Shown here: positions 5,169-54,430 of the stretch, one piece after another | Position numbering within the stretch: the stretch's first letter is position 1 | Layout of the letters: every line of letters starts with the position of its first letter | Origin: Cyrtodaria siliqua | Taxonomy: Eukaryota; Mollusca; Bivalvia; Adapedonta; Hiatellidae | NCBI GenBank assembly: GCA_037043455.1 | Contig: JAWPHD010001140.1 | Coordinates: 248,001-312,000, forward strand | Length of the DNA stretch: 64,000 bases | Direction of reading: 5' to 3' | The notes under the pieces: generated by a model | Databases searched by the model: none | What the model saw: the letters and a program-made list of their open reading frames with translations, nothing else | What the model was told of the DNA's origin: nothing | Program-made: the position numbers and the translations under genes

Positions 5169-5173
5169 TATGA

Positions 5174-7505: not shown

Positions 7506-7698
7506 ATATATATGTATTTTGGGCGTTCTGTTGTAATTTTCGTCTCACTCTGTTTCGCCTCATATTACAACAGAAACGCCCAAAAATACATATATAATAA
7601 ATCATCATTTCATGGTGATTTACTTGATTTATTAAAAAAAATTAAAATAGGGGTAGCGAAGATTGCAAGTTTAATTTTTTATAAGTTATCAAAATTAC
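7506..7698 (+). repeat. Left TIR of Polinton 1
   Basis: Matches the inverse of 21866-22051 with small gaps. The first 64 bases or so are nearly perfect. The outer part is itself a fold-back: 7506-7537 and 7564-7595 are inverted copies (ATGTATTTTGGGCGTTCTGT against ACAGAAACGCCCAAAAATAC) around a 26-bp spacer. Confidence 0.9.
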
Positions 7699-21865: not shown

Positions 21866-22051
21866 GTAATTTTGATAACTTATAAAAAAAAAAAAACTTG
21901 CCATCTTCACTACCCCTATTTTAAAAAAGTTTTAATAAATCAAGTAAAATGGTGATTTATTATATTTGTATTTTGGGGCGATTCTGTTGTAATTTGAGGC
22001 GAAACAGAGTGAGACGAAAATTACAACAGAACGCCCAAAATACATATATAT
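21866..22051 (-). repeat. Right TIR of Polinton 1
   Basis: Inverse of 7506-7698, including its own fold-back arms (about 21964-21993 and 22020-22051). It runs from GTAATTTTGATAACTTAT to ATACATATATAT. Confidence 0.9.
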
Positions 22052-28959: not shown

Positions 28960-28965
28960 TATATT

Positions 28966-29290
28966 AGTAGTATAGATAATGAGGATATCAGGCCAGTTTC
29001 CCTCCCGCGGGGAACGAGAAAAACTAATGAAATATGCGAGGGGGGACTCAGGCGTAACTCTCATTCGCACCAAGATCTAAATATTAGTCACGCCTAAATC
29101 AACACCAACATATTTCATTAGTTTTCTCAAGCACCTCGCTCAGGGAAACTCGCCTGATACCCTCACTATCTATACTACTAATCAATCCGGTTGTCATTTT
29201 AATAACATAACATTTGCAACTCGTTAAGCAAAGTCAGACGGAACCGGGCAGTAGTCTTCATCATCGCTCTGCATATCATTTTTTCCGTGG
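28966..29290 (+). repeat. Left TIR of Polinton 2
   Basis: Inverse of 46027-46351. It contains a fold-back: 28966-29036 and 29109-29181 are inverted copies (for example AAAACTAATGAAATATG against CATATTTCATTAGTTTT) around about 70 bp. Its inner end (29230-29283, minus strand) also encodes the last residues of the gene at the other end of the element. Confidence 0.9.
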
Positions 29291-29321
29291 TTGCCTCAGT
29301 ATTTCATTTTTTCTTTAGATT

Positions 29322-29421
29322 ACCATGTCACGTGACCGTTTATAATATAAACGTTTGCTATGTCACGTGACCGTTTATAAAATAAACGTTTGCTATGTCA
29401 CGTGACCGTTTATAATATAAA
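29322..29421 (+). repeat. 35-bp tandem array, left part
   Basis: About three copies of a 35-bp unit (AAACGTTTGCTATGTCACGT...) containing the palindromes AAACGTTT and CACGTG. Continues at 31948 after the LTR element. Confidence 0.85.
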
Positions 29422-29938
29422 TGCTATATCTGGGCTATTCATGTGGGTATAGTAGGTTATACTAATAGTCCAGTATAAGTTTTTAAATAGTTTATTATCG
29501 TATCACTCTGTACGTTTCTCCGTACTATATTTATTTATGGTCCTAGAGTTTGGCTCTAGAGGCCTTTTACATGCATGGCTTTGTTCACTCTCACAATCTG
29601 CTCACTTCAATACAACTTTCAAGAAAACTCATGTAGACTCTAAGGTGTTTTTCCAAGATCTCACACAAAGACAGAAAGCGGGAAAATGCATTTCAGGTAA
29701 GCAATGATCTGATTGGTCAATTGTGTGGTCAGTTTATAGTGATGTGCATTGAAGCAGTGATTTGTATTAATTTGCTTACAGGTTTATTTTAAAGGTACAC
29801 TGTCTATTTTATATATGATGAATACAAGTTTAGTTGTACATCAATTTACTTGTCGTAATGTAAGTTATATAATGTTAAGATTGTTATTTAAGATCATTAT
29901 TAAGTGTGATTTCTACACCTAATAATTCACATACTACA
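29422..29938 (-). repeat. LTR, full copy (3' LTR)
   Basis: 517 bp, TG...CA ends when read on either strand (minus strand: TGTAGTATGTG to GATATAGCA). Confidence 0.75.
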
Positions 29939-30240
29939 TACTTCCCCTGTCCTTGAAATGACGTCCTCGTCATTTATCAGGTACATGACAGCAATAAAAT
30001 ATTTATTTACAAATGACAATGATAAAATGAAACAACACATAGTTAACGTTCAGTTTACATATTGATTTATTTCCTTCTTATCAAAACGTTAACTGCTGAT
30101 ATCAACTATAATCATGTTGTTTTACAGCAAAGAAGAACACACACATAATTCAATATTTTATTTCTTCTTTCTCCGTAATTGCATGAAAACTTCACATGTA
30201 TAGTATATATACAATTAAAATACATTTATATATGAACATT

Positions 30241-30729
30241 TCATTTATCTTTCTTCTGTAACTTCATGATGAAATCACCCATTGTTATCCATTTAGGTGG
30301 TCTTTTATTCCGCGTGGATCGTCTTACAGGAACTTCTGCTCTTTCTTGAATAATCGGTGTTGTCCTATTATCGTCAGTTTTGTCTGAAATAGATTTATCG
30401 TTAGTACCCGTACTATGTGCAAACGGAGGTGTTATAGGCATATCATCTCCATGTTGATTTGCTGTCAACATTACAATACTGTCATCTCTAAGCAAGTTGG
30501 CCATATCTTGCTTTACTGCAAGATCCTGCTTAATGATATTCGTATTTAATTCAACCAAATAATTTTGTTCTGTTTCACTTACTCTATAATCTCTTTCAGA
30601 AACACGTATTTCAGAAATACCAGATTGACTAATATCTGATATATTCATTCCTGCGTCTTCTGCTATGATTACTTGTTTTACCTCTGTACTTATAGGAATG
30701 TTACTATCAGAAATGCTAGTGTCTGTCAT
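30241..30729 (-). pseudogene. Pol C-terminal fragment of LTR element
   Basis: 162 codons starting MTDTSISDSNIPISTEVKQV. Low complexity and acidic, ending VRRSTRNKRPPKWITMGDF. The RRSTRxxRPPKW motif is typical of the C-terminal tail of gypsy-like pol (downstream of integrase). No reverse transcriptase, RNase H or integrase remains. It ends about 300 bp from the 3' LTR, as expected. Start is arbitrary because the upstream part is deleted. Confidence 0.55.
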
Positions 30730-31604
30730 ACTATCTGTAATTACTTTGTCACCAAATACCTTATACTTTCACTCCGTACCAACAATCACGTTAACTGTGT
30801 CACTTTATAACCAGCTACTCTATTGATACACCACCTAACACTGTTTTAACAATTCACTATTTCACCAACTACCGTAAACAATGTTCACTTTTATAAAGTT
30901 CACTCTCTTGAACTACTATATAATCCACTAATTACCTTACATTACTTTCTTTCACGTCTACTTCATCCACTATAATTCAGTAATCAATAACTCAATTATC
31001 TTAATTACTAAAGACAATACCAATAAGATAATGACTTCAACAGGTACACAGCACTATCTCAACTATGATCCACAAATATTAACTCCAATAACTCATGTAT
31101 TATTATACTAATCAACACTCCCTGTTGCACTATGTAATCACTATTGATACACTGTGCTTAACTAAGTACAAAATCTAGGTCACCTCAATTCACTAAGTCT
31201 GATATCTCAATCAATATATGACAAATATTTCAAATGTCTCTCTATATACTTTATATCACTATCTCATATCTCAACTCTTTATATCATCTCGTAATCTCTA
31301 TCTCGTATATCTCAACTCTTTATATCATCTCGTAATCTCTATCTCGTATATCTCAACTCTTTATATCATGCTATCTCATATCTTAACTGTCCTGTATCTA
31401 TTCTTCTCAATTATGTTTTTTTATTGTTTTACTAGCACCGATTTATCTTCTCTACAACTAACTTCCTTTAATTAAAATTCTAACAAATTTCCTGAATTTC
31501 AACTATTAAATCTTTTACTGCTATTTAAATTGATACACAGGTCAGAATTACAACACTCACTGACAGGTGTGTAATTGTAGTAGATCAAACCAGTTTACTA
31601 TACT
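30730..31604. other. Internal LTR-element sequence, non-coding
   Basis: C/T- and A-rich DNA without a frame. At 31258-31376 it holds three tandem copies of a 41-bp unit (TCTCAACTCTTTATATCATC...). Confidence 0.65.
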
Positions 31605-31947
31605 ATCTGCTCACTTCATTACAACTTTCAAGAAAACTCATGTAGACTCTAAGGTGTTTTTCCAAGATCTCACACAAAGACAGAAAGCGGGAAAATGCAT
31701 TTCAGGTAAGCAATGATCTGATTGGTCAATTGTGTGGTCAGTTTATAGTGATGTGCATTGAAGCAGTGATTTGTATTAATTTGCTTACAGGTTTATTTTA
31801 AAGGTACACTGTCTATTTTATATATGATGAATACAAGTTTAGTTGTACATCAATTTACTTGTCGTAATGTAAGTTATATAATGTTAAGATTGTTATTTAA
31901 GATCATTATTAAGTGTGATTTCTACACCTAATAATTCACATACTACA
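31605..31947 (-). repeat. LTR, truncated copy (5' LTR)
   Basis: 343 bp, same length and almost the same sequence as 29596-29938. The missing 174 bp would be the R/U5 end next to the primer site, so the copy cannot have arisen by normal reverse transcription and was cut later. Confidence 0.75.
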
Positions 31948-32235
31948 TAAACGTTTGCTATGTCACGTGAACGTTTATAAAATAAACGTTTGCTATGTCA
32001 CGTGACCGTTTATAAAATAAACGTTTGCTATGTCACGTGACCGTTTATAATATAAACGTTTGCTATGTCACGTGAACGTTTATAATATAAACGTTTGCTA
32101 TGTCACGTGACCGTTTATAATATAAACGTTTGCTATGTCACGTGACCGTTTATAAAATAAACGTTTGCTATGTCACGTGACCGTTTATAATATAAACGTT
32201 TGCTATGTCACGTGGCCGTTTATAATATAAACGTT
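31948..32235 (+). repeat. 35-bp tandem array, right part
   Basis: About eight copies of the same 35-bp unit as at 29322, each with CACGTG. Unit variants differ at GTGACC/GTGAAC/GTGGCC and ATAATATA/ATAAAATA. The array is subterminal in Polinton 2. Confidence 0.88.
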
Positions 32236-32452
32236 CTTGTTAAAAGCGTAATACAAAGTATCGCTTTTAACTTTCGCTCTTTCAGGTCTCTATTCCCAAA
32301 AAGGGTACCGTGTTAAGAGTGATACTAGTCTGCAGTATTTCACTGCCTTATATACCTGTCAAGTAGGCCAAACCTTCACCGATTGGTTGATTTGGCCCTC
32401 GAAGTTACGTATGATTATGTTTGCAGTGTTTGGCCCTCGAAGTTTCGTACGA
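32236..32452. other. Non-coding spacer with a short duplication
   Basis: Holds a tandem pair of about 32 bp (TTTGGCCCTCGAAGTTACGT and TTTGGCCCTCGAAGTTTCGT) at about 32390-32455, and the inverted pair AAAAGCG/CGCTTTT near 32245-32270. Confidence 0.5.
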
Positions 32453-32789
32453 TTACGTTTTAAGGTTTTCAATATCCTTGAATGGAACCCAACTATTGAA
32501 ATCTTCATTGTAACCCTTCCATTTAATCAACGCTTTTTTCTTTTTGTAATCACGTCGTATTACTTTTTCAATCCTGAATATTTCCTGCTTTGCTTTTATC
32601 ATTTCTAATTCATAAAAGCTTCCATCAATGTTTTCGTTGTTTAAATCTTTTATTTTGTATGTCACAGGATTTGTGTTATGAATTTCATCAACAATAAATA
32701 TTTCTTCAGTCCAATTTGGGGTATAACCTTTTTCAAACGTTCTTTTATATTTGCTGATTCTAACATTATCCCCTATTTTAAACTTTCTT
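32453..32789 (-). pseudogene. int: Polinton 2 integrase, C-terminal part with chromodomain
   Basis: Open from the insertion junction at 32789 to the stop at 32453. It encodes KFKIGDNVRISKYKRTFEKG, then YTPNWTEEIFIVDEIHNTNP, then FYELEMIKA and a chromodomain (FRIEKVIRRDYKKKKALIKW, then KGYNEDFNSWVP). The aromatic and WKGY pattern is that of chromodomains, which guide integration to methylated histones in related elements. It is cut off from the catalytic core (34803-35410) by a 2-kb insertion. Confidence 0.85.
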
Positions 32790-32791
32790 TA

Positions 32792-34800
32792 CGTGGACAC
32801 GGCTCATTTCGTTTAAGCAAATACAGATTAGCCGTGGGCGGAGCTTATTATAGTTTTATCGATACATGTAATTTGTGGGCGGAGCTTATCGATCTATTTA
32901 CAATCAAGTCTACTAAAAGATCGATAATTGTCTCGGTATTTATATAACAAACTGAATTAAAACATGATATACATGTAGTGAAAAAGAAGGAAGCCTCAAT
33001 CATTTTGTGAGCGGTGTTTAATAATTATAAACTATCATCGGCGTTCACGGATTATACTAAATTGATTAAAATTAAATGCGAACCGCAAACTGTTTCACAG
33101 TACTGAGTGGTAATGGTTTATAATTAATCAATAAACACAGACCTTATAACTATTAAAATGTCTGTGATATAAAGCTAGAACTATTAAACAAATCGGTAAA
33201 CGTGTCCATTTTAAAATTATAGCCAGTATATATTACTGTATCTTCTCAAGTTTTTTAACAAACTGGGTCCCCCTATTCGTCGAAGGCGCGTGCATCGCTG
33301 TTATATAAAAGACACCAGTGTAGACCAATGATTTATGTTTATCATGTTTATATTACTGTTTAATCGTGTGCATAGTCTATGTCCAATTTGTAGACACAAA
33401 TACAGGGTATACTCAAGCCACGCGCGCTACCGATCAATGACACGTATCGCGATATTTAAAGATGCCGCCTGTCACCAGGGCTTTATATGCTTTAATTTTC
33501 AGCCCAGCTGTCAAGTAGATACTTATCTCAATTTCACATCATTGCAAAAATGACGCAATACATTCCTTTAAACCTTTACACGTCAAGCCTTTGGACGTAT
33601 CAAACTGGTATATCACCCGGTTAGATGTTTACAGAAGTATATTAAAGAAACACACGGAAATCTTGAACTGTTTATCAAGCATTGAAATTAGCGTTTCAAT
33701 TTATTTATCCAGTATCATTTTAACCCTGCTTGCATATACATGTAATTAAAATAATAAATAATTAGTTTTGAGTTTTCATTTTTTTTATCTTATCCTACCA
33801 TAGGTTAACATAATTATATTATCAACAGTTACTAATATTCAAAAATAATTTTCTTTATACTATTCGTATACTTAATATTAATGATTGAACAAATGAAAGT
33901 TATGTAAAAAATTTACTGTAGCGCCGTGAGTTTTTTTAAATCAAGATAGCCGTGTGTCCCTTTAATATTTATCGCCTAGCCTATAATGCATTATTTAAAG
34001 AGACACATGGACTCTTGAAATGGGATGAATCATCAAAATAATCACGCCGGTTTGATTAACCCAATATCATTTTGACTTGAAATTTGCTCGCTTCTACATT
34101 CTCACATGTAAATACGCATGTTGCAGATACGTTGATCATACGTTTGTATCCATTTGACGAATTAAACCAATTGTAATGGTGTGTTATTTAAGGATTATAG
34201 GCCCTCCACCACTTTACCAATTTAGAATGCGCTACATCTAGTAAACCACATGCTTTCATTTCGACGGATATATATACAAAGAGAGATAAGTTATATATAT
34301 GTACATCCTTGTGCTATAACACTATCTCGTCTTGTCTCTTTCTGTTTTCTTATCCTTGTTATTGTAATGAAAGCGATCTTAGAGTTCGATGACACGGGCC
34401 CTATTCCAACAACCCGCTCCATCATAAGCATGAACAATTTAAGATAATGCAATCATTTACTCTAATTTAGCACGCTAAACAGCGAACGTATAACTGAACA
34501 ATGGCGCGGGTTTTGGGATGAACAAATTATGACGTCAAAAAGAAGGTGGGTCTTATGTTTTCGGTCAGGAGTTGCGTTCGTACTAATGGATATGTTTACG
34601 TCTTTAACACATATGTTTACCCTTTAAAAATATACAAACGATATATTATGCATTTCAAATCAAATATATTTCGATAAAATCAAAGGTTGGGGCCACTGAA
34701 GGCAGATTAAGAAGATTAAAATGAAGACCCCAAGGTACCCCTTTTCGCCATATAAGCCAAGATGCGACCTTGGGATCTTAAAGATAATGCGGCGTCCACG
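32792..34800. mobile_element. 2.0-kb TIR element inserted in integrase
   Basis: Starts CGTGGACAC and ends GCGTCCACG, inverted ends of about 7 bp with weaker similarity beyond, flanked by TA (32790-32791 and 34801-34802). TA duplication suggests a Tc1/mariner-like or similar mechanism. No transposase frame is visible, so it is non-autonomous. Integrase sequence resumes in the same frame on both sides apart from a stop at the junction. It holds the TTAA MITE at 33646. Confidence 0.6.
33646..33961 (+). mobile_element. TTAA-flanked MITE, copy B
   Basis: 316 bp between TTAA at 33642-33645 and 33962-33965. It matches copy C (GAAATTAGCGTTTCAATTTA against GAAATTAGCGTCTCAATTTC). A further left half without a right end begins at 33999 (AGAGACACATGG). 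Nested inside the 2-kb element, hence younger. Confidence 0.7.
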
Positions 34801-34802
34801 TA

Positions 34803-35410
34803 ATGCTTAATTTGATTACTTCTCATTTTTCCATACAAGTTGAAATACACTGTTCCTTTATTTTTCTCATCACTAGCCTCAATCGGCGTCATTTTAATAC
34901 TCCGATGTTTTGTATTATTATACTTATCAATCATTTCTTATAACACGTCTAAATATGTGTTTGTATTGTTTGCTGTAAAATATTTCCACATCCTCTCTTT
35001 TAATATTCTGTTAAATCGTTAATTACTACAGCTTTTCCGGAAATAAAAGTGTGATACATTTTGATATTATTATCATCAAGAAATTGCGTAAAAGCCTTGT
35101 TGTAAAATTCCATACCTTGATCAACCCACAACAATTTACAAAGTCTTCCTGTACTGATTATCTGTTTGAACGCTTTGGTAATTTCTAAACCAGTTTTATT
35201 TGGAACGGGTACAACCCAAGCAAATTTACTAAATAAATCAATAACAGTAAGCAAGTATTTAGTACCTTTATTATACTTTGAAAACGATTGCAAGTCAACC
35301 AAATCAGCAGACCATATTTTATCAGTTTCATTAACAATCACACGGCTTTGAGTGAACTTTCTTCGTACAGGCTTATGAAGTTCATCTGCTAACTTGTCAG
35401 TCCATTTCAA
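34803..35410 (-). pseudogene. int: Polinton 2 integrase, catalytic core
   Basis: Core reads LKWTDKLADELHKPVRRKF, then WSADLVDLQSFSKYNKG (first D), KLLWVDQGMEFYNK (second D), and ISGKAVVIN, where the frame breaks just where the third acidic residue is expected. The frame resumes one base over (RFNRILKERMWKYF), meets a TAA, then MIDKYNNTKHRSIKMTPIEA up to the insertion at 34800. There is no ATG for the core: the frame is open upstream into the PLA2-like gene, suggesting a single fused protein originally. Confidence 0.88.
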
Positions 35411-35879
35411 CGCTTTTTTTCGTTTTTTGAGTTTCCGAGTCCTAGTTTATATTTTGCACTAATAACTGGTTTTATATCAAATTCTTAGCAATCTTTTCTC
35501 CAATAGTTTTAGACTTACTAGATTTCAAACCAGTAAGCATGTTTGTATCACACATTGATTTATTACTAGGATTTTCATCATAACAAATATCATGATCTTT
35601 GCAAACAGCATCTAACTCATTTACCGGCTCTCCGCTATCAAGCGGATTACCCGGACCGCAATATTTATAACCAGGAAGTGTTAGCCCTTTTTTGGGTAGC
35701 AAAGGGAGCAAAGCTTTATGAATATCAATATTTCCACCTTCTGTGTTTTTAACAAACTTTGTTTTAGTAATACCACAAGATGCACAAGTTGCTTTTAACA
35801 TTTTTCTACCATTTTTTGCTAAAACATACTTAGGATCAACATTTTCATTAACCTTTTTTTCTTTTATGCAATAACTCAT
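35407..35879 (-). pseudogene. PLA2-like domain upstream of integrase
   Basis: Starts [20 protein letters not shown] at 35879. A zinc-like pair (CASC) is followed by the secretory-type phospholipase A2 core: calcium loop [15 protein letters not shown], then catalytic His-Asp in [13 protein letters not shown]. The first frame stops at 35472, but another frame carries on ([20 protein letters not shown]) to 35407, just at the integrase core. PLA2 domains of this kind in parvovirus capsids breach endosomes; here the role is inferred from family only. Both catalytic residues look intact. The ATG overlaps the stop of the preceding gene (ATGA). Confidence 0.8.
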
Positions 35880-36214
35880 ATATAATATGATAAGATTAAA
35901 CTTCGTTTACAAAATATGATTTTATCATTATCTTTTATATAATTATCGATATCAGCATAACTGTAATTTCCGTTTGCAAAACTAATTCTTTTCCAATCTG
36001 TCCCATTGTGATACCTAATCACTTTGTTATTAAAATCTTCACTAATATTATACCATGAGTAAGTCATGGAATTAATCTTATCGAGTCCAATGCAATACTG
36101 TTTGTTCTTACCTAATATTAATGGTCTGTCAAATACAGCTGTAAAATTACTCGGTGTGTTTGAGCTATTTATTATTGACGCTTTTTCTGATGAAAATACA
36201 ATTTTTTGTTCCAT
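35876..36214 (-). CDS. Beta-rich structural-type protein, probably truncated
   Basis: I start at ATG 36214 ([20 protein letters not shown]), which sits directly in the TCATATTATATG motif shared by neighbours; the upstream in-frame ATG is less likely. 112 codons. Blocks: [48 protein letters not shown]. Relatives I know of are about twice as long. The last 15 residues read through promoter-like DNA of the next gene, so the 3' half has probably been deleted. Function unknown; possibly a virion protein. Confidence 0.55.
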
Positions 36215-36233
36215 ATAATATGAATAGATAAAA

Positions 36234-37642
36234 TTAATCACTTGAATAAAATAGTTTAAAGCTGGATTTTTCAAAAAAGTAAACTGTAGTAGTATTGTCT
36301 GCCATAAATAAGCTGAAAAAAATAGAAGATGATGGTTTTAAATAAAATTCAAATGTTTCTTTTAATATTTGTTTGTCGTGTTTTTTTATCGGGTAAAGAT
36401 ACTTTCTGTTCCCGTCTGTTGTAGACATAAGGATATGTTCTACAACTGCTACCGTATAAGTAAAATCTATTTCAAATACATAACGGCCCTCCTTAAGAAT
36501 TTGCAACCCCAAAGAGTTTTTTATATAATATTCTTCACCTTTTATAAGTGGATTGGCTACAAAGGTAAACGCTTCGAGAAAAAATCGCGAACGCCCGGAT
36601 CTTTCAAGTGTTTTTTTTGCGACGGGTATGATACAAAAGTATTATGACTACCATCATAATCTTGAATAATACTTATTCCATCTATTGTATATTCGACAAG
36701 TAGAATCCGTTTAAATAGTCTACTTTTACTTTCAGCTCATCAATTATACCAATAACTGCTGTGTGCCGGCTATCAGACTTTTGATTATGCTCTTTAAGAG
36801 AAGCTATTTCATCGTCAAAAGCTTTGCTTCTTTCATCCTGAGCAGGTTTCAATTGCTTTGAAACATCATCAATAGCAGTGTTAAGTTTATCAGTGTCAAC
36901 CAGTTTGCTCAGAGCAGTCTCCAACGACTTACCATCAACCATTGTCTTTTTGATGTCTTCAAACTCTTTGCTGATATCAGCGGCGTTGGTGCTTATCTGT
37001 TGATTTAATATTTCAATTTGGGTTATTTCAGTAGTAAAAGCAGTTCTCATTTGTTTTGAAGCATCAACAATAGCAGTTTCTAGTTCATTGTTATCAACCA
37101 TTTGATTATTTATTTCTTTGATTCGCTCATTAATACTGTCAACACCAACATATTTTCTCGCCTAAATTTTTATAGAGCTCGCTATAATCTTCCAATCCAT
37201 ATTCTTTCGTTTCTAACTCTTTTAAGGCATCACCCAAAAGTTTTATTTCATCTTTTAAACCGTTTTGAATTTCAATCATTTTCTCACGGTTTGCTTGTAA
37301 CTTTATTTGTATTTGACTAAGTTTATCATCAACACCTGTTGTCAAATTTTTTGTCATGTCTGGAATATTATCAATATTATAATCACGTATGATTTTTGTT
37401 ATTCTTCTTTGAGTATATTGCCTTGTTGCTACATCATCTGCTTTCTCTGGATTACCCACATTGATAATTTTATTTTTATTCATGTCAAGATCACTTCTCA
37501 AAACATTTTCCTGGTTTTTACCCTTGTGAAGATAATTAACCAAATATTTTTGTTTTACATACTCAGACAGCACAATACCAAAATGTGTAATATTAACACT
37601 GCCAGTAGTAACTTCCTCGCCAAGATCATTAAAAATTCCCAT
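36234..37642 (-). pseudogene. Tail-fibre-like coiled-coil protein
   Basis: Starts MGIFNDLGEEVTTGSVNITH at 37642 (after TCATATTATATGTA). Near residue 45 it has DLDMNKNKIINVGNPEKADD, the short repeat common in phage tail fibres. About 300 residues of heptad-like coiled coil follow (37480-36700), and a C-terminal beta-rich domain (SLGLQILKEGRYVFEIDFTY, then FFSLFMADNTTTVYFFEKSS) ends at 36234. Frames change near 37160, 36690 and 36590, so the gene is broken. The layout N-anchor, coiled shaft, globular tip suggests a trimeric attachment fibre; that is inference. Confidence 0.65.
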
Positions 37643-37661
37643 TACATATAATATGATTAAA

Positions 37662-38307
37662 TTAAATTTCAAAGTTGAAGTTACGTTTTACTAACTTCCT
37701 CGGACGATCAAGATACAGAAAGTCGTACTGCTTGTCAGTTGCTTTTTTTATACTGATCTTTGCTGACATCTTGTTCGTTGGAAAGCATACCCAGCTCACG
37801 ATTAATTGGAGTCGCAAAGAAGATGTAATGAGAACAGTTCAACCGAGTATCTTTGGGAGTTTTGTAATAAGATTGAGATAAATAAATTACACAACAATTT
37901 TTGTGTCTTCCCTGGATGAAATAATTAATAATATCGTTTTGATTGCGCTCGCAAACATAATCATCAAAAATAAATATCTTTTGAGTATCAGAATCTAAAT
38001 CATTAACAGGGATAACTTTATCAGTTGAACATTCTAATATTTCCCCAACTTGGATTTTATTTTTTTTTGATATCTTTTCAAGTTTTTGTGAGAAGACCTG
38101 ATACTTAGACTGTTCCAAGTTTTTAGCAAACAAGTAAATCTTGTCATAGTAAACTAAAGGTTTCAGCAACATGTGAACTAATGTGTTCGTCTTGCCAGAT
38201 CCTGAATTGCCGTATATAAACATTCTAAAACAACAGTCTGGCATAAAGTTCCATAGTTGTTTAAAATTACCGTTTTCTGTTTTCATATCATAGTTTGGAA
38301 CTTGCAT
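37662..38307 (-). pseudogene. Polinton 2 packaging ATPase (FtsK/HerA type)
   Basis: Starts MQVPNYDMKTENGNFKQLWN at 38307. Walker A is IYGNSGSGKTNTL (about residues 32-44), Walker B is QKIFIFDDYVCE (about 110-121), and sensor block YFIQGRHKNCCVIYLSQSYY follows. The frame is open for 190 codons, then shifts near 37745 and ends RPRKLVKRNFNFEI at 37662. It is only distantly similar to the Polinton 1 ATPase. Catalytic motifs intact. Follows the fibre-like gene's promoter motif on the same strand. Confidence 0.87.
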
Positions 38308-38380
38308 TATAATAATGCTTGGATATACTTGTCTTAACTTATTTTAATTGATCTTATTTTAATCTAACTTATATTATTAC

Positions 38381-39842
38381 ATGTCTTTGTTAAAATGGAA
38401 AGAATTACCAGATAAAATGCGAAAAGCGAGTGAGCTTGTTAAAGAATACGAGAATAGATTTACCCGAAAAAGACTAGAAAAAGGAGCTAGTCGTGAATTG
38501 TACAAAGAAGTATTTAAACCTGTAACTAGCGAAATAACAGAGCAAACAAGACGGCTAGCTGAACATTTGATTACCCTTCCAGAAATACGTCAACAGTTGC
38601 TCTTCTTCCTGAGGCAATACGCCCGCAATTACTTGCCCCGCCCGAGCGTGGCAAGCAATTACTTCCCCCGCCTGAGCGTGGACCTATCAAGCAAACCGTG
38701 TATCCCCCCAGATACCGACAATCTCTAGCTGATTACGAAGAGGAACAAAAGCAGGCATTAGAGCCTAGACCAAAATTAAGCTCAGACAGAGTGCTAAGGT
38801 CAAAACCTGCCGAAACCACGGAAGAATTATTTGAAAAAATCAAAAAGAAACGTACATCAATTAATCCCGGGGATGAAGAAATAATAAAAGGAATAGACAA
38901 AGAATTGGAAGAAGAAGAACTAGCTGCGAGGCCTAAGGAACCCAAACCGGTGTATGATATTGACTTGGATGCTGGCATGAATAAAGAAATTCTTGGTAAG
39001 CATGATTTGCCAATACCAACTGAAATATCAGGTATTGCTGATGGAAGTGCTGATTATGATAAATATATTAAAAGGGCCGAGAGGTTGCACAAGGCAATAT
39101 CTCCCAAGATAAGAGGTTTGGAGATAAGAATAGACAACCTCGGCGAACAAAGACTCAAAGAGAGGCTCAGGAACGCGACAACCGATGCGACCAAACGTGA
39201 AATTTCAAGATTAATAGTTAACACGGGGTCACGCAAAAACGAATTAGATAAACTCGCAAAAGAACATGATGGTATGACTGATGAAGCGGATGCTCTGGAT
39301 TTTTACATAGGCAGGTTAGGGCGAATTCGAGAAGCTAGAGAAATTGCACAAAAGACTGGCAAAGGGATGCAACAAAAACGAAATTCCTACAAAGTCGACC
39401 AAGATGGCCACTATGGAGTGTTACAAATTGATTTACCTAAGCTTGTTGGTCATCACAAACTTATTGCCAAACAACGAGAAGCAATCGTGCTAGACCTCAA
39501 AGTAGACGATGATTTTATAGACTTGATAACAAAGCGTTACAATAATAAAAAACTTATTCAAAGCTGTCTCAGAATGCTTTCAAGGAACTAACAAAATTAT
39601 CTGGTTTACCAATTCATAAAGGTTCTTCAAAGTTCAAAAAGATTTTAGGAGGTTTAGTTGAATATTACAATAGTCTTAAAGATTTGATGGATGATCTAGA
39701 GTTAGTATGTGTGAGTATCGAATCAGGAAATAATAGTCCACGGCTAATAAATAAAGGTATTAGCATAATCGATGAATTATTAAAAATAGGTAAAATATCA
39801 TCCAAAGAACATGAGCAACTATTTTCTAAATATCTTAATTAA
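38381..39842 (+). pseudogene. Long coiled-coil Polinton protein, two frameshifts
   Basis: Starts MSLLKWKELPDKMRKASELV. The N-terminal 75 residues are helical (TSEITEQTRRLAEHL). The frame changes near 38600 into a Pro-rich segment and a 300-residue charged helical part (DIDLDAGMNKEILGKHDLPI, then RAERLHKAISPKIRGLEIRI). It changes again near 39570 and ends in FKKILGGLVEYYNSLKDLMD and LLKIGKISSKEHEQLFSKYL. A Pro-rich insert carries two near copies of an 18-24 bp unit (CCCCGCCCGAGCGTGGCAAG). Recurs in invertebrate Polintons; role unknown, possibly scaffold or core. First gene of the plus-strand group, divergent from the ATPase. Confidence 0.7.
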
Positions 39843-39866
39843 ATTATTGTCTAACTGTAATTATAC

Positions 39867-40318
39867 ATGACAAAAATTACTAACAAAGAAGAATTAATTG
39901 ATCACTTGACAGACTAGTGGCTGCATACAGACGCAGTTATAAATTGTGCGGTATTATAAACACAACATTACAGATTACCAGTGGAATAATTGGTTGTACT
40001 GCTGTATTGGCATTGGCTCCGGCAATTCCTGTTTTCGTGGCTGCAGTTGCTGCATTTCCTCCAATAGTTGCTGTTTTAGCAAGTAAAACAAGAATAGCAG
40101 AAAAAAAGACTTTGTTAAAAACACATCATAGAAGTTTTAAACAACTTTTATCATATGTCCAAATAACCACAGGACTAGAAAATGACGAGGAGATAATTAG
40201 GATTGTCTTTAATAAAATATTAGAATTTCAAAAGAATGATAACTTCACAGAACCTCTGGAAATGTATATGAAACGGTTCAAGCTTAATGGGCATTACGCT
40301 AGTAGAGATGCTCCGTAG
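39867..40318 (+). pseudogene. Two-helix membrane protein of Polinton 2, early frameshift
   Basis: ATG 39867 (MTKITNKEELIDHLTD) runs into a stop within 17 codons; the next frame (YRRSYKLCGIINTTLQITSG) is open to TAG 40318. Two hydrophobic segments (GIIGCTAVLALAPAIPVFVA, then AAFPPIVAVLA) are followed by a basic helix (SKTRIAEKKTLLKTHHRSFK) and a helical C-terminus. The same layout as Polinton 1 21216-21790, so a core Polinton component. Function unknown. Confidence 0.65.
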
Positions 40319-40410
40319 GATTCCGTAATTCTTGCCTGACTTGTTTCCATATCCTATCGTACTTTTCTCTGGTTGATTTTGTTTTAATCGTTTCGTTTAT
40401 TTTTCTATAT

Positions 40411-40850
40411 TTAATATTTTAAATATTTTCTGAAAAATGTATTCGAATTTGATTGATCTTTTTCGACGTTCATTTGATCCAAAACCTTTACAATTTTGTA
40501 AAACAAATCTTCAAATCTTTATCTATTTTTAGAAGACAAATCATATTTTACCAAGTGTTTATCTAAATGATACTTTCTGTGATTAATAGTTTTCTTTCGG
40601 CTGTAATTGTAACCTGCAATAAGATTGTAGCCGAGGTGAGTGCCTCAATTAAGGCAAATACGCTGGTTATCGAAAACTTCACAAGTATCGTTATAATTTA
40701 TACATGCGTAAGTACACTTGTAACACAGCTTGGCTCTAGTACAATATTTACAAAGCTTCTTTTTATTAGTCGTGTAAAATAAGATACAATCATATTACGA
40801 TCATTAATATCTAAAACGCTTTCACAATATTTGCAATTTATTATACTATA
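40411..40850 (-). pseudogene. Cysteine/histidine-rich protein remnant
   Basis: On the minus strand one frame gives INCKYCESVLDINDRN, then after a shift KLCKYCTRAKLCYKCTYAC, CEVFDNQRICLN, a stop, then KKTINHRKYHLDKHLVKYD, ending at 40411. Repeated CxxC spacing suggests a zinc ribbon or finger protein, a type also met in other Polintons. Broken by at least one shift and two stops. The plus-strand frame at 40567-40782 over the same DNA is a shadow. Confidence 0.4.
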
Positions 40851-40870
40851 CCCTAGAATTATATTTTTAA

Positions 40871-40911
40871 AATATAGGCTTAAAGAAATATTATCTTATG
40901 TAATTATATAA
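40871..40911 (+). promoter_or_regulatory. Promoter-like block, copy 1
   Basis: AATATAGGCTTAAAGAAATA followed by TTATCTTATGTAATTATATA right before ATG 40912. Nearly the same block precedes polB at 42026-42067. Confidence 0.6.
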
Positions 40912-41213
40912 ATGGAACGTATAGAAAAGAAAATCAAAAACTTTAAGAAAAATCAAACGGAACATGCAAAAACTATTGATTTTGAAGATGCGAGTAATAA
41001 GCTTTTAATTTTTTCAAACTTTCAAGATTTGACAGAAAGAATCATAACGATGGTAAAACAACTAAAACTGTCTTATAAAATAAAAAAGGAGATATAAACA
41101 AACAAATTTCAGATGCAACCAGTTACCAGCCAAAAGTATACAAAGATTCTTTTATTGCATGCTATGATGTTTACTTAAGCAAGGAATTGAAATTATTATG
41201 TATGGTTGACTAA
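40912..41213 (+). pseudogene. Small charged Polinton 2 protein, one frameshift
   Basis: Starts MERIEKKIKNFKKNQTEHAK; 61 codons to 41097, then another frame (SDATSYQPKVYKDSFIACYD, then VYLSKELKLLCMVD) ends at 41213. Helical basic N-terminus. Preceded by the promoter-like block shared with polB. Not recognised. Confidence 0.5.
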
Positions 41214-41233
41214 AATAATATAATCTTTAATAT

Positions 41234-41481
41234 ATGAGTATTTACAGTTATGCGGAAGAAGAAAAAAACATTTTGAAGAGGAACAGAAGGTTTATGAGAA
41301 AGTAGCTGCTTACGAGCAAGCTCTTTTAACCAAGACAAATGAACTTATCAAAGAGTTTGAGACAGTTCACATGCAACGATTGTCAGATGATATTGCAGCT
41401 TTTTAAAAAGATTAGGCAATAAAAACTGAGATTGAGTGCAATGATGCTGTAAAGCTTCTCACAGATCTAGCAGAAAAATAA
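41234..41481 (+). pseudogene. Small helical protein, frameshift and stops
   Basis: ATG 41234 (MSIYSYAEEEK) shifts frame in the A-run at about 41265 and continues HFEEEQKVYEKVAAYEQALL, then TKTNELIKEFETVHMQRLSD, with two stops before the end TEIECNDAVKLLTDLAEK. A single long amphipathic helix. Not recognised; 20 bp after the previous gene. Confidence 0.45.
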
Positions 41482-41514
41482 ATTAAGATTTTTAATGAAA
41501 CACAATTAAAAGTA

Positions 41515-41997
41515 ATGTCTGAAAATGTTGAGTTGTTCAGAGATAATCAAATCAGCAATCTAGAAAAACCTCATGCGATTAATACTGATATCGGATGTTA
41601 CGAGGACTTTGAAACCCTTGTCGAAAGTTTAAAAGAATTGATTGATGCAGAAGTTTTTGATAAAGACGAGTTTATAAACTATTGCAAATACAGGATAAAA
41701 ATAAAATCACTGGCAGCTGGAGGTGATCTTAAAACTGTTGATTTTGATAGATACTGTAAATATCATGTAAAAATAAGTCAGATGATAGATAATAGAGTTC
41801 TTGAGGAAAAATACTTTCGGAGATACTTAGACATTCTTCTGGATAATGAAATAGATGCTCTCTTGGATGAGGTTACTAACGAGGACACCGGTGAAGATGT
41901 TTATGAGAATACTGATGAAGATACGGATGAGGACACCGATGAGGACGCCGACGAGGATATCGATGAGGACGCCGACGAGGGTGAAAATATTAAATAA
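41515..41997 (+). CDS. Acidic-tailed protein of Polinton 2
   Basis: Intact 160-codon frame starting MSENVELFRDNQISNLEKPH. A helical N-terminal domain contains two related segments (FINYCKYRIKIKSLA and FDRYCKYHVKISQMI), which look like an internal duplication of about 35 residues. The C-terminus is a TDEDTDEDADEDIDEDADE acidic tract coded by a 12-18 bp tandem repeat. Acidic tails like this can bind basic proteins or histones; that is a guess. One of the few unbroken genes of the element. Confidence 0.65.
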   Translation: MSENVELFRDNQISNLEKPHAINTDIGCYEDFETLVESLKELIDAEVFDKDEFINYCKYRIKIKSLAAGGDLKTVDFDRYCKYHVKISQMIDNRVLEEKYFRRYLDILLDNEIDALLDEVTNEDTGEDVYENTDEDTDEDTDEDADEDIDEDADEGENIK

Positions 41998-42025
41998 AAT
42001 AATGTTATTTAATTAATTAATTAAT

Positions 42026-42067
42026 TAATATAAGCTTAAAGAAATAATCTTATGTAATATTATAATA
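42026..42067 (+). promoter_or_regulatory. Promoter-like block, copy 2 (polB)
   Basis: AATATAAGCTTAAAGAAATA followed by ATCTTATGTAATATTATAAT before ATG 42068. Matches 40871-40911. Confidence 0.6.
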
Positions 42068-45000
42068 ATGAGTATCCGAGAAATTGAAACATCACCAAAA
42101 CAGTATATCAAGGTTTTTAAAGTAAATGTTGTCAGTAATGATCCGCTCAGACAACTACAAAAAACACAATCAAGTGTTGTGAACTTTCTTAAAAAAGAAC
42201 TAAGAAAAACAGGTGGATTGATTAAGCATTGATGTAAAACTTACTTTTAAAAAACAAGTATCGGATGATAGAGGATTGATTGATTGAATTGGATTTTATA
42301 GTCGCACCAACAGCTAAGGTCATATGGCGACTTTCCAGTTTTCATTGGTGGAGGAAGACCCCAGGTGCCCCTCCGGGCAATTTTCTTGCACGGGCGTGCA
42401 CCTGGGTAGAACCACCGACGTTTCGCAAGCCAGCTGGATAGCTTCCTCACATAAAGATTCCTTGGCCCCTGAGGGATCGAACCTACAGCGGTGAGAGGCA
42501 AGTGATTTCAAGTCAGAGACGTTAACCACTCGGCCACGGGCGCCCCCTGGATGATAGAGGAGGTTTTGATTGCGTATACAAAACAGCTTACTTTGCCTCG
42601 AAGGCGGTAATAATATTAAACAAAAATCAAATATCGGAAACATTAGACAAAGCACAGGAAGAAATTATCAATATAATTGGAAATTGGATTCAGTTGGGAA
42701 GTGGTCGGGTAATTGAGACACTAGACGCACACTATATAAATCGAATAAAGTATAAGCCTTTACGGGGTAGCTCTTATTTGGATTTACCAAAAGAACTTTC
42801 TAATTCTAAAAAAGGATTAATAAATATAAAAAATGAAAAAGATAACGAATGCTTCAGATGGTGACATTTGGCTTATGAATTTCCTGCCAATAATAAACCA
42901 CAAAGGATAACAAAGTATAAAAAGCATATTGGTGATCTTGATTATAAAGGAATTACATTTCCTGTTACTATCAAACAAATCCCAAAAATAGAAAAACAAA
43001 ACAACATTTGTTTTAACATATTTGGGTATGGAGATAATCAAGTATACCCTTTGCACATATCAAAAAATAAAGCAGAAAAAACATGTGATATGCTTTTAAT
43101 CACCAAAGAAGAAAAAAATCATTATGTGTGGATAAAAGATTTTAACAGGTGAATTTTTAAGCAAACATTACATTCGAATAAAAAATGGTTTTGTAAAACA
43201 TGCTTGCAGTGCTTTAAATTAGAAAGAGTTCTGGAAAAACATAAACATGTTTGTCTTTCACTTAATGGTAAGCAAGCATTAGAGATGCTAAACAAAGATG
43301 AAAAAGTTAAGTTTAAAAACTACGACAGACAGCTAATGGTTCCGTTTGTTATATATGCTGATTTTGAAGCAGTAACCGAAAGTATTTCTTCAGTATCAAA
43401 CAATCCTAAACAATCACATACAGAAGCATATCAAAAGCATACTGATTGCAGTTAGGGGTATAAGGTTGTTTGTTGTTATGATGATCAATATTCAAAACCA
43501 GTTATAACGTATAGAGAACATGATAGAAGAAGAAAAGTGGTGTAAAAAACTATGAATGTAAACTTTAAAAAAGATCTAGTAATGTCACAGGAAGAAGAAG
43601 CTGGATTCCAAAAATCTAAATCATGTCATATTTGTGGTAATGGTTTTGCAACAACTCTCAAAAAAGGTGACGCGGGTTATACAGTGGCATACAAAAACTC
43701 CATCAGAAAAGTTAGAGACCATTGCCATATAACTGGAAAGTATAGAGGAAGCGCTCATGACATATGTAATATTAATTTCAGGTTGACTAGAAAAATACCT
43801 GTTGTGTTTCATAACTTGAGAGGATACGATTCCCACTTTATATGGAACACATCGGAAAGTTTAAACAAAACATAATTGTTATACCGAATAACATGGAGAA
43901 GTACATGGCTTTTATGTTAGGACAAAGTTTGGTGTTTATTGACAGTTTTCAGTTTATGTCTCAATCATTAGAACATTTAGTAAAAAACATCCCTTCGTTT
44001 CAATACACCTCTCAGGAATACTCTGGCGACAAGCTAGAATTAATAAAACGGAAAGGCGTTTATCCTTATGATTATATGAACAGTTTTGAACGCTTCAAGG
44101 ATACTAAATTATCTGACAAAGATAGCTTTTATTCTCAATTAAATGATGAGCACACTTCAAGAATATCGAAAACATTTAAGATTAAAAATATGGGAGAATA
44201 TCATGATTTGTATCTTAAGACTGATGTGCTGTTGCTGACAGATGCTTCTGAAAACCTTAGAAAAATGTGCATTGAGTATTACAAATTAGATCCTTGTCAT
44301 TACTTCAGTAGTCCTGGTTTAGCTTGGGATGCATGCCTTAAGATGACTGGTATCCAACTTGATTTAATAACTGATATTGATCAATATTTGTTTGTGGAAA
44401 AAGGATTAAGAGGCGGTACGAGTTATATTGCAAACGGATATTCACAGGCTAACAATAATATATGAAAAACTATGACAAGAAAAAAGAAAACAAGTACAAA
44501 ATATATCTCGATGCTAAAAACTTGTATGGATGGACTATGTGTCAACCGTTTCCTACTGGCAACTTCAAGTGGGTTGATAAGTTTGAAAAAGGAAAATCAA
44601 ATTACATTGTTGAGTGTGATATTACGTATCCTGAGAAACTGCATGACTTACATAATGATTATCCTCTCGCCCCGGAAAGTTTAAACATAAAAAATGAGTG
44701 GCTGTCAGACTATTGTAAAAATTGAAAACAAAAGTTTAATTTAGAACATCGTAATATTAATAAACTTGTCACGACACTAAAAAATAAAGAAAAGTATGTT
44801 GTGCATTTTAGAAACTTAGAATTGTATAAAAAGCTTGGATTGAAGGTAACAAAAATACACCGAATACTACAGTTGGACGAATCAGAGTGGTTAAAGACAT
44901 GAATAGACTTAAATACTGCCAAGAGAACAGCTGGTAAAAATGCTTTTGAAAAGGATTTCTTCAAGCTGATGAACAATTCAGTTTTTGGTAAAACTATGGT

Positions 45001-45718
45001 AAACTTGAGAAAAAGAATTAATGTTAAATTAACTCACGATGAGGAGGTCCTTTTAAAATATGCGGCAAGACCTTCATTTATTTCTTGTAAAATGTTTAAT
45101 GAACATTTATTTGCCATAAACAGAATAAAAGAACGATTAGTTTTAAATCGTCCTTGTTATGTTGGCATGTATTTTAGACTTGTCAAAATATTTGATGTAT
45201 GATTTCAATTACAACTATATCAAACACAAATATGATAGAAAAGCTAAGTTATTATTTACTGATACCGATTCCTTGTGTTACGAAATAGAAACAAAAGATG
45301 TTTATGCGGACTTTTACAAGGAAAAGAACTGTTTGATAATTGTGATTATGATCCAAAAAGTTAGTTCCATTTTAATGATAATAAAAATGTTATTGGCAAG
45401 ATGAAAGATGAAACTTGTGGAATACCCATAGTTGAATGTGTTGGGTGGCGAAGTAAACTATATTCGTATGTGCTAGATAATGAGGTTAGTACAAAGAAAT
45501 GTAAGGGTGTTAAAAAGTGCGTTGTTAAAAAACAGATAGCACATTACGATTAAAAAAAGATTTTGTTTACGGCAACAGAAGCTCACCATGAGATGAAAGT
45601 TATTAGATCGCAAAAGCATAACATAAGCAGCTATGCAATAAATAAAAAAAGTTTATCAGCTTATGATGATAAACGGTACATACCAGATAACGGACAAGAT
45701 ACGTTAGCATACAGTTAA
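42068..45718 (+). pseudogene. polB: Polinton 2 family-B DNA polymerase (pPolB)
   Basis: Starts MSIREIETSPKQYIKVFKVN. After the SINE insertion (42276-42548) the N-terminal domain continues (FDCVYKTAYFASKAVIILNK). Exo I is VIYADFEAV (about 43349), Exo II is FHNLRGYDSHFI (about 43810), Exo III is YHDLYLKTDVLLLTD (about 44200), PGLAWDA about 44315, motif A YLDAKNLYGW (about 44504, intact here), motif B NNSVFGKTMVNLRKR (about 44968), motif C FTDTDSL (about 45257). The end is ISSYAINKKSLSAYDDKRYI to 45718. Stops include TGA near 42864 and 43150 and TAG near 43453, plus frame changes near 43545, 43845, 44460, 44725 and 45175. Same order as the Polinton 1 enzyme but clearly divergent. Inactive. Confidence 0.9.
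42276..42548 (-). mobile_element. tRNA-derived SINE inserted in polB
   Basis: 273 bp on the minus strand flanked by the 13-bp duplication GGATGATAGAGGA (42263-42275 and 42549-42561). The head (42470-42548) is tRNA-like: A box TGGCCGAGTGG, B box GGTTCGATCCC. The body has GGGGTCTTCCTCCACCA and GGAAAGTCGCCATATGAC, and ends in GTTGGTGCGACTATAAAA plus an ATTGATTGATTGA-type tail. It looks like a known mollusc SINE family. The tRNA-like head is not a working tRNA gene. Well preserved, so a recent insertion. Confidence 0.9.
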
Positions 45719-45778
45719 TTGTAATAGTTGAGTAGCATTCAAGGGTTTAAAAATAATTATATATAGTATTATTATATA

Positions 45779-46093
45779 ATGGAACAACAAAGATTAGAAA
45801 AGGTTTGCAGAAAACTTAACCATTTAAAAGATAAATATAGAAGAGAATTGATGAGAGGTAAGCAACTCCAAGTAGAATATGAGGTAGTCCGTGATGATTT
45901 TATGGACACCAAAAAAAGGCGATTGCTGTTTCAAATGGATAATTATGAACGTGAGATGGCCGGAAACAGAGAAGAGCTTCTTGAACTGAAATACAAAATA
46001 GCAAAGTGTAGAAAAATAAAATACTCCATGGTAAAACATGATATGCAGAGCGATGATGAAGACTACTGCCCGGTTCCGTCTGACTTTGCTTAA
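45779..46093 (+). CDS. Small coiled-coil protein reaching into right TIR
   Basis: Intact 104-codon frame starting MEQQRLEKVCRKLNHLKDKY, almost entirely helical with heptads, ending DMQSDDEDYCPVPSDFA. The last 20 or so codons (from about 46032) lie inside the right TIR, so the left TIR carries a copy of the same C-terminus without a gene attached (29223-29283, minus). Preceded by TAGTATTATTATATA. Not recognised. Confidence 0.65.
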   Translation: MEQQRLEKVCRKLNHLKDKYRRELMRGKQLQVEYEVVRDDFMDTKKRRLLFQMDNYEREMAGNREELLELKYKIAKCRKIKYSMVKHDMQSDDEDYCPVPSDFA

Positions 46094-46351
46094 CGAGTTG
46101 CAAATGTTATGTTACTAAATTGACAACCGAATTGATTAGTAGTATAGATAGTGAGGGTATCAGGCGAGTTTCCCTGAGCGGGGTGCTTGAGAAAACTAAT
46201 GAAATATGTCGGTGTTGATTTAGGCGTGTCTTACATTTAGATCTTGGTGCAAATGAGAGTTACGCCTGAGTCGCCCCTCGCATATTTCATTAGTTTTTCT
46301 CGTTCCCCGCGGGAGGGAAACTGGTCTGGTACCCTCACTACCTATACTGCT
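46027..46351 (-). repeat. Right TIR of Polinton 2
   Basis: Inverse of 28966-29290, including both fold-back arms, ending CCTATACTGCT. Confidence 0.9.
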
Positions 46352-46488
46352 AATATTATATCTTCATACAAATTATATGTATTTTACTGTCTCAATAAAG
46401 GAATTAATAGAATTTAATTTTGAGTTCCTTGTTACCTACTATGATTAATACTTGTTGCGCCTTACTAAAAGCTATTCTTTATCGCAAG

Positions 46489-46760: not shown

Positions 46761-48068
46761 AGAAGCAAAATGAACATGTTAAAAAGAAACAAGACATGTG
46801 ACATCACAAGAACAAACGGATTGACAATTGACAAAAAAGGCCGCTGTGGCGCTAGGGAGAACCAAGCATCACTCATGCGTAGTGTCATTGCAATTAAATG
46901 TCACAGGGTAAATAACAAAATCACCTCCTACTTATATTCGTTAGCAAACAAGGCAGCATCAACCTCTCTCTTACTCTATAGTCATCCAATATAACGGGAT
47001 AGCTTCAGTTAAACGTCTCTACTAGACAATATAACGGGACAGCTTCAATTAAAAAGTCTCTACTAGACAATCTCCTCTAACACACTAAGCAGCATTTATA
47101 AGTATTTAAGTAAAAACACAAATGAATATTATACCAAAATCTTAGAAATACACGAAGAAAATACTCAGTGACTTTCCTTTTAACTTTATTTATACTGGAG
47201 GACTTTATACACACATAATGTATATGGTTTCAATAATTCTTACAAGCAACATTGAAACTAATGGCGCGATAGCCCCAATATATTACCTAATTAAAACAGA
47301 TTTTCACAGTAATCAAATTTGACTGTAGTATTTGATGAAGTAAATATAAAGTGATATATACACATAAATGATTCCGAAATACGATTAAAAGTACGATATA
47401 ACTTTGACTGTTTTCATAGAGGTGTTTTGAAAGTTCTCAAATACATTCGCTGCGATTCACTTACACAGGGTATTATCTGTTATATATGTTGTATCTGTTG
47501 GAGAACTGACCACAACTGTAAGGCAAAAGCATAACTATAACCCCGAGTAAAGAATTTAATTGGAGAAATACAGGTGTAAATAAATTATGACGTTCCCTAG
47601 ATAAAACTAATATATACGACACAGAGGTAAGCAAATATCTGTATATGAGTAGCTCATTTGAGGTAAATCAGGTCAGAACAAATTATAGTAAAATATACAA
47701 AAAAAACATGCATGCGAAATATATTTAAAATCTTTTAATTAGATTTTAGAGTCGTTTGGAATGATCTTTTATTTCGGTCTACGTTAATCAGGGCTATCTT
47801 TATAGATGATAAGTGGCGACGACAGCACACAGCTTAAATAGTCTTTCCAGGGCCAAGTTTTCTTAAATAACGTAATTTCAGCTGAACCTTTTTATTAAAT
47901 TGTTAACGGCCTACAAAACGAGCTAAAATCACGACCGACCGACCACTCATTCAGCCACCCACCCAAACACGCACTGACTCAGCCACCCACACACCTACCC
48001 ACCCACCCACCAACAAACCCAACCACCCACTCACTAAAAATCCCACCACGCACATCACCCGCCCAGAA
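46761..48068. other. No gene seen
   Basis: AT-rich DNA with a short direct duplication (ATATAACGGGATAGCTTCAG... at 46989 and 47023) and C/A-rich simple sequence from about 47935 leading into the microsatellite. Confidence 0.4.
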
Positions 48069-48683
48069 CTCACTCACTCACTCACTCACTCACTCACTCA
48101 CTCACTCACTCACTCACTCACTCACTCACTCACTCACTCACTCACTCACTCACTCACTCACTCACTCACTCACTCACTCACTCACTCACTCACTCACTCA
48201 CTCACTCACTCACTCACTCACTCACTCACTCACTCACTCACTCACTCACTCACTCACTCACTCACTCACTCACTCACTCACTCACTCACTCACTCACACA
48301 CTCACTCACTCACTCACTCACTCACTCACTCACTCACTCACTCACTCACTCACTCACTCACTCACTCACTCACTCACTCACTCACTAATTCACTAACTCA
48401 CTCACTCACTCACGCACTAACTTACACACTCACACACCCCACATCACTCACTCACTCACTCACTCACTCACTCACTCACTCACTCACTCATTCACACACT
48501 CACTCACTCACTCACTCACGCACTCACTCACTCACTCACACACCCCACATCACTCATTCACTCACTCACTCACACACACACTCACTCACTCACTCACTCA
48601 AAACCCAACCACCCACCCACCCACTCACTCATTCACTCACATTCACTTACTTACTCACTTACTTACTTACTTACTTACTTATT
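48069..48683 (+). repeat. (CACT)n microsatellite
   Basis: Near-perfect CACT repeats for over 300 bp (48069-48395), then interrupted CACT/CACA blocks to about 48600 and a TTAC run at 48646-48683. Assembled length is unreliable. Confidence 0.95.
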
Positions 48684-54005: not shown

Positions 54006-54201
54006 ATAAATAAAGTTAAGCAAATCCTTTGGAAGCAACGAACGCAAGAGAAGAATGTACCAGACTCGGTTTAATGATGATATAATATCAATTAGGCGAT
54101 AGACGACAAATTGTTTTAACGAACTATTATATCTGAATCACACACACACGCATACACGCACACACCCACACCCACAAACGCACACACACTCAATATATAT
54201 A

Positions 54202-54428: not shown

Positions 54429-54430
54429 TA

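Follow-up and report, generated by a model that had tools for sequence, protein, structure and literature searches.

The ends of a Polinton-like element family seem to keep their ability to fold back

In the family of P2, a Polinton/Maverick-like element of Cyrtodaria siliqua, the capacity of each DNA end to form a fold-back seems to be maintained, and it may assist the element in copying its tips. Within each P2 terminal inverted repeat (TIR), the outermost 214 bp form a single long imperfect palindrome, which starts with AGTAGT and has ACTACT at its inner end. Near the tip, the two arms of this palindrome vary together among 35 elements, and we consider it very probable that selection or copying actively maintains the match between them. 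P2 lies in the window, the whole stretch of 64,000 nt that was analysed, and unlabelled coordinates refer to that stretch.

The element, its TIRs and its recognisable genes are as follows.

28966..46351, no strand assigned: Polinton/Maverick-like element P2 with an AGTAGT end motif, recognised by its TIR pair, near-matching target site duplications (TSDs), rve, PLA2/DUF5679 and A32 ATPase matches, and PolB motifs
28966..29311, plus strand: left TIR of P2, a 92.3% inverted match to 46012-46356
46012..46351, minus strand: right TIR of P2, an inverted match to the left TIR
35003..35446, minus strand: rve integrase fragment (PF00665, E = 3.9e-13), its gene broken
35475..35906, minus strand: ORF with DUF5679 and a phospholipase A2-like domain (PF08398, E = 3.3e-16; PF18930, E = 4.8e-11)
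37738..38343, minus strand: A32-type packaging ATPase (PF04665, E = 4e-14)
43546..45272, plus strand: PolB remnants in several frames, recognised by motifs only (NSVFGK at 44975, DTDS at 45261)

The TIRs are about 325 bp long, and the alignment of 28961-29311 with 46356-46012 has 92.3% identity. The left terminus reads AGTAGT (AGTAGTATAG) at 28966, and the right end reads AGCAGT with its terminus at 46351; the flanking 6-mers, TATATT and AATATT, agree at five of six positions, a near-perfect 6-bp target duplication. On these sequence features P2 would be classed as a Polinton/Maverick, with a predicted rve integrase and A32-type ATPase, an AG-type TIR end motif and a 6-bp TSD. The ATPase has 1961 relatives at E <= 1e-5. 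The genes of this copy are broken. Its PolB fragments are conserved among P2-family members; those tried gave no Pfam match, and no double jelly-roll major capsid protein was found in the subset of P2 ORFs scanned.

Just inside the left TIR lies a 35-bp tandem array, whose unit is rich in short palindromes such as GTCACGTGAC. It is present as two blocks (29325-29421 and 31947-32235) flanking a 2.4-kb LTR-like insert, which is bounded by 358-bp direct repeats (29583-29940 and 31593-31949, 98.6%) and carries a 175-aa ORF on the minus strand (30244-30768).

The initial annotation had proposed that the P2 TIRs contain fold-backs with arms of about 71 bp separated by about 70 bp. This was borne out by shuffling and folding, with bounds within about 2 nt of those proposed, and the palindromes and their arms are placed here.

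28966..29179, plus strand: terminal palindrome of 214 bp, P2 left end (AGTAGT...ACTACT), from self-inverse score and DNA fold
46138..46351, minus strand: terminal palindrome of 214 bp, P2 right end, from self-inverse score
28966..28993, plus strand: outer arm of the left end, positions 1-28; its variable part, 12-28, changes in step with the inner arm
29152..29179, minus strand: inner arm of the left end, the inverted match of the outer arm
46324..46351, minus strand: outer arm of the right end
46138..46165, plus strand: inner arm of the right end

Self-inverse scores were 136 for the left end and 142 for the right, against a mean of 20 and maxima of 37 and 42 in 1000 dinucleotide shuffles each. 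Folded as single-stranded DNA, 28966-29181 reached -53.3 kcal/mol compared with -16.6 +/- 3.1 for 200 shuffles (z = -11.8). The strong arms occupy approximately 28966-29036 and 29108-29179, and the middle pairs weakly too. When 1274 window positions were ranked by self-inverse score, the P2 ends took ranks 2 and 3, and rank 1 went to a fold-back at 3851-4150, away from any Polinton end. A separate scan of 3185 steps reached a stem score of 44 at four loci: both P2 ends, 3861-3921 and 54201. The outer arms of the two P2 ends (28966-28994 and 46323-46351) differ at 6 of 28 positions, by eye through transitions, which is far above the rest of the TIR. An Rfam search of the window gave no match.

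Other repeats in the window include its strongest palindrome, 277 bp at 3865-4141, which is partly repeated in a tandem duplication (3977-4575 and 4568-5176, 96%; 3851-5176 overall), an inverted repeat at 54198-54432 with 46-bp arms (93%), and an array of the 4-bp repeat ACTC, about 150 units long, at 48068-48679. Plus-strand ORFs at 51586-52665 resemble, by eye, a Penelope-like reverse transcriptase.

Relatives of P2 were taken from the window's own assembly (2.88 Gb in 26,948 contigs), which holds, besides P2's own, at least 150 ATPase copies at 85-92% identity, 150 of 4370 first-look candidates having been scored. The sample consisted of stretches either side of the ATPase in 10 elements and 40 short stretches at predicted ends, an end being accepted in the short stretches when at least nine of ten motif bases agreed. 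Nine of the 10 elements and 24 of the 40 stretches yielded motif ends, which together with P2 and one neighbouring end met by chance (E21x) gave 35 elements. Both ends carried the motif in eight of the 10 fetched elements, one end in E15 and none in E31. One end per element was counted, nine being left out (P2R, E17L, E19L, E21R, E23L, E25R, E27R, E29R and E33R); for E17, E19, E21 and E23 the better-kept end was used, which favours matching. The sample covers one family in one assembly with ends chosen by their end motif, and the near-zero variation at positions 1-11 is partly due to this selection.

Target duplications were scored in the nine two-ended elements. Five match at 6/6 positions and P2, E23 and E25 at 5/6; E21 matches at 0/6 at the scored place, or at 6/6 by eye if three extra bases are assigned to the element, a GGT that sits between the likely TACATG duplication and AGTAGT at its left end (E21L). 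The TIR end of the neighbouring element (L021:2155-2391) lies 23 bp from this same left end.

A survey of terminal palindromes against shuffled controls, suggested at the outset for Polintons in general, was carried out in the P2 family only and gave a clear excess there. The outer 40 nt of each end were compared with the region 110-300 nt inside, with 300 shuffles per end. In 33 of the 35 ends the outer 40 nt paired inward better than all but 2 of the 300 shuffles, the exceptions being L054 and L070 (5/300 each). Lowest-energy DNA folds paired the tip with the inner arm in 33/35 ends, with z < -3 in 29/35, from fold units cut at the inner arm, a bias towards pairing; the tip of L070 has no inward pairing in its fold. 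In 35 elements the palindrome begins precisely at the terminus. Its inner arm stops 208-221 nt from the terminus in 29 ends, and 190-258 nt from it over all ends; this arm repeats the end motif AGTAGTATAG in 22, and the other 13 have a decayed or different inner arm. An asymmetric core lies in P2's orientation in 35/35 ends, the margin being small for several of these 13.

L041 has a terminal 8-bp duplication (AGTAGTAT abutting AGTAGTATAG) such as might result if synthesis slipped or jumped back at its start. L065 carries long G runs in both its arms, and L053 in its inner arm. TIR subgroups switch exactly at the inner ACTACT boundary, with AATCAATCC in most, TGCCATTTT in L039-L041, L057 and L072, and TGCCTCAG in E29. 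The L041 duplication, the extra bases of E21L, the G runs and the boundary subgroups would fit end slippage or re-joining, all as single cases.

The sequence of the arms differs among elements, and within each end one arm follows the other. At positions 11-20, the outer arms of the 35 ends match their own inner arm at 0.886 and those of other ends at 0.673, a difference reached in 0 of 20,000 permutations. For the 22 ends that keep the inner motif, the values were 0.950 for own and 0.674 for foreign arms (0/20,000), with the same outcome when the inner arm was located by the invariant motif alone, blind to the variable barcode. The other 13 ends gave 0.777 and 0.669 (17/20,000) with no coupling at positions 29-40; coupling is thus weaker in 13 of 35 ends, and a perfect palindrome is therefore unnecessary for element spread. 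Reducing the set to one row per distinct barcode (16 rows, positions 12-19) left 0.953 v 0.609 (0/20,000). The 8-nt barcodes are identical between arms in 17 of the 22 ends, and position 12, which has three states, matches in all 22 (10.3 expected). Parsimony on a core tree of 20 ends, leaving out L053 and L065 for their G-run length changes, required 31 outer and 30 inner changes at positions 12-19, and only 35 when both arms were counted jointly; at least 26 changes are therefore shared by both arms.

Coupling drops sharply after position 28, being weak at positions 29-40, yet not absent: 0.536 own versus 0.500 foreign for all 35 ends (193/20,000), and 0.591 versus 0.520 for the 22 (19/20,000). 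Position 29 is a standing mismatch, with 1 match in 22, and mismatches are frequent in the 22 at positions 23, 25, 27 and 28. Some mismatches predate insertion, because they are present at both ends of an element (E25, E17). Mean entropy is 0.72-0.91 for columns 12-28 and 186-203 and no more than 0.49 elsewhere in the palindrome, so that its most variable columns are those that pair, self-matched.

In eight of nine two-ended elements the left outer arm departs from the right one at 0-3 of its 28 positions; in P2 it does so at 6. This shared sequence indicates that the ends are homogenised and says nothing on how the TIR arose. Barcode distance showed Spearman correlations of -0.27 to 0.15 with rve, PolB-fragment, ATPase and core distance (10 elements, low power, pairs not independent). 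That barcode distance fails to track gene and core distance suggests that matching counts more than the letters themselves. The earlier idea that fold-back ends may be a functional feature gains support within P2's own family, where arm covariation goes far beyond permutation. The companion idea, that fold-back ends are how TIRs become duplicated, gains no direct support from these data.

Selection for pairing, one protein reading both arms, or copying from arm to arm could each keep the arms matched. If a single element protein (the integrase, or terminal protein/PolB) binds at both arms, they could co-evolve without any folding. The recurrence of AGTAGTATAG in the inner arm of 22/35 ends would be expected of a second site, the switch of TIR subgroups exactly at the inner ACTACT boundary makes the inner end look like a unit, and the arm spacing is loose (190-258 nt). 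The putative site is, however, highly variable, and much of the remaining stem pairs too in the 22 ends. Nor does it track the divergence of rve, PolB fragments or ATPase, and simple co-evolution with one tested gene is disfavoured by the absent distance correlation (10 elements, short fragments, low power). We judge the two-site explanation improbable.

A second alternative makes the matching a by-product, in which one arm is rewritten from the other by a template switch inside the quasi-palindrome during replication (quasipalindrome correction), with no benefit to the element. The long G runs in the arms of L065 and L053 are consistent with such copying, as is the barcode common to left and right ends. 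At one place the P2 inner arm fits its outer arm (ATTAGT/ACTAAT) where most of the relatives aligned with it have a mismatch (AACAGT). Against this, conserved mismatches persist beside the tip (position 29 and the core), so copying falls short of the whole palindrome, and the stable position of the inner arm across divergent cores suggests retention. Copying as a mere by-product is, on balance, unlikely.

Parvovirus terminal hairpins also place a palindrome at the extreme terminus, and are processed by a Rep nickase with flip/flop. A rolling-hairpin transfer of this kind would account for the overall shape of the P2 ends, in which unique sequence follows a palindrome that occupies the very terminus. 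In the P2 family, however, the orientation of the asymmetric core is fixed (35/35, with the small margins noted above), on which flip/flop transfer was rejected, and position 29 is never flipped. We regard this route as very improbable. No HUH nickase match appeared among the ORFs scanned for domains. Chance, or a MITE or fold-back inserted at the element end, has a negligible claim: the window does hold other fold-backs (3851-4150 and 54201), but in the 35 elements the palindrome sits right at the terminus and its arms co-vary, and a chance origin was rejected by the fold z, the self-inverse shuffles and the family stem test.

How Polintons copy their linear ends has been inferred mainly by analogy with adenoviruses and phages. 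We propose that the P2 ends could act as fold-back telomeres for protein-primed replication or end repair, a proposal whose chances we take to be evenly balanced. The tip sequence, about 28 nt, is present twice per end, facing outward at the terminus and again, in inverted form, some 190 nt deeper inside. When the end turns single-stranded, as a displaced strand or as a 3' overhang in strand-displacement synthesis, the tip may fold onto the inner arm and so rebuild, within one strand, the short duplex of the normal double-stranded end. This folded duplex may then be a substrate for restarting protein-primed synthesis or refilling a worn tip, with PolB as the presumed user of the folded end. 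The confinement of most coupling to the last 28 nt and the mismatch at position 29 fit a tip of limited length that is re-paired, rewritten or refilled. More tentatively, the end might be a self-templating telomere, distinct from adenovirus panhandles and parvovirus transfer, in which each lineage carries four self-matched copies of a rapidly changing end barcode, about 17 nt long, one in either arm at both ends, and the tip is rewritten from the inner arm by short fold-back synthesis.

The other Polinton of the window, P1, also ends in hairpins.

7512..7593, plus strand: P1 terminal hairpin, left end
21965..22045, minus strand: P1 terminal hairpin, right end (bounds approximate)

Each P1 end unit is about 80 bp, with a 26-bp stem, two 1-nt bulges and a loop of about 26 nt, and folds with z = -8.2. 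The P1 ends have a self-inverse score of 69 (maxima of 58 and 54 in 1000 own shuffles each), and stand tenth and eleventh in the non-overlapping window list of these scores, so that the P1 palindrome does not stand out from the rest of the window. The terminal sequences of P1 and P2 are dissimilar, with a local score of 16 whichever way they are oriented, in agreement with the initial annotation. Its view that the two elements share one terminal plan is true only in outline: both have fold-backs at their termini, but the P1 unit is only about 80 bp and that of P2 is 214 bp. To call the elements unrelated was too strong, since both carry PolB motifs and an rve integrase. The P1 polymerase matches the phrog_1907 DNA polymerase (E = 1.3e-4), a PDB search with the P1 PolB fragment gave no match, and Capsid_N in P1 reached 16.1 bits, under the cutoff of 24. 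If the self-templating telomere is real, the unrelated hairpin of P1 would be an independent case of the same solution.

Wider searches returned few candidates for comparison. IMG/VR held no relative of the P2 ATPase or of its 29-row alignment; the 29-row alignment had no relative in genome_contigs, and P0001 none in phages. A degenerate PolB motif search found one IMG/VR contig (L001, longer as L006) and four MAG contigs (L002-L005). L006 has tandem repeats, its best self-inverse scores lie near 9001-9301, and no strong palindrome was found near the one contig end seen, which may not be the element end. A word search of open-access literature, which does not establish absence from print, found no report of palindromic or fold-back Polinton ends. 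Any genome can be scanned for covarying terminal arms, which provide a signature of end folding at the sequence level.

For vertebrate Mavericks/Polintons, (AGT)2 is one of two end motifs reported, along with 6-bp target duplications, TIRs of 46-1447 bp, and PolB, integrase and ATPase genes (PMC8097293). P2 resembles them in its (AGT)2 end motif, 6-bp TSD, TIRs, and integrase and ATPase genes; the available text of that report makes no mention of a terminal palindrome or arm covariation, with 0 occurrences of "hairpin" (PMC8097293). Bidnavirus inverted terminal repeats (ITRs) are said, in the text available, not to form hairpins (PMC4061559). Teratorn, a piggyBac/herpesvirus element, is like P2 in having extra TIR copies inside the outer ones, but is described, in the sections available, without a palindrome within one TIR (PMC6431247). 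Adenoviruses replicate by protein-primed strand displacement, and the displaced strand pairs its two ITRs with each other to restore a duplex end; this panhandle is a duplex between the two ends of a strand, whereas the duplex proposed for P2 lies within one end (PMC9863843, as far as available). Local fold-back would be an alternative to the adenovirus panhandle, and arm covariation makes the choice between panhandle and local fold-back testable. A precedent is given by the protein-capped telomeres of Streptomyces, whose terminal 13 nt are complementary to an inner palindrome, with a terminal protein that primes synthesis and a 3' overhang that folds (PMC4513846, in the text available). The tip of the P2 family is likewise complementary to its inner arm. 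The Streptomyces system differs in being bacterial, with an internal origin, Tap/Tpg and several short palindromes (PMC4513846), whereas the P2 family has one long palindrome.
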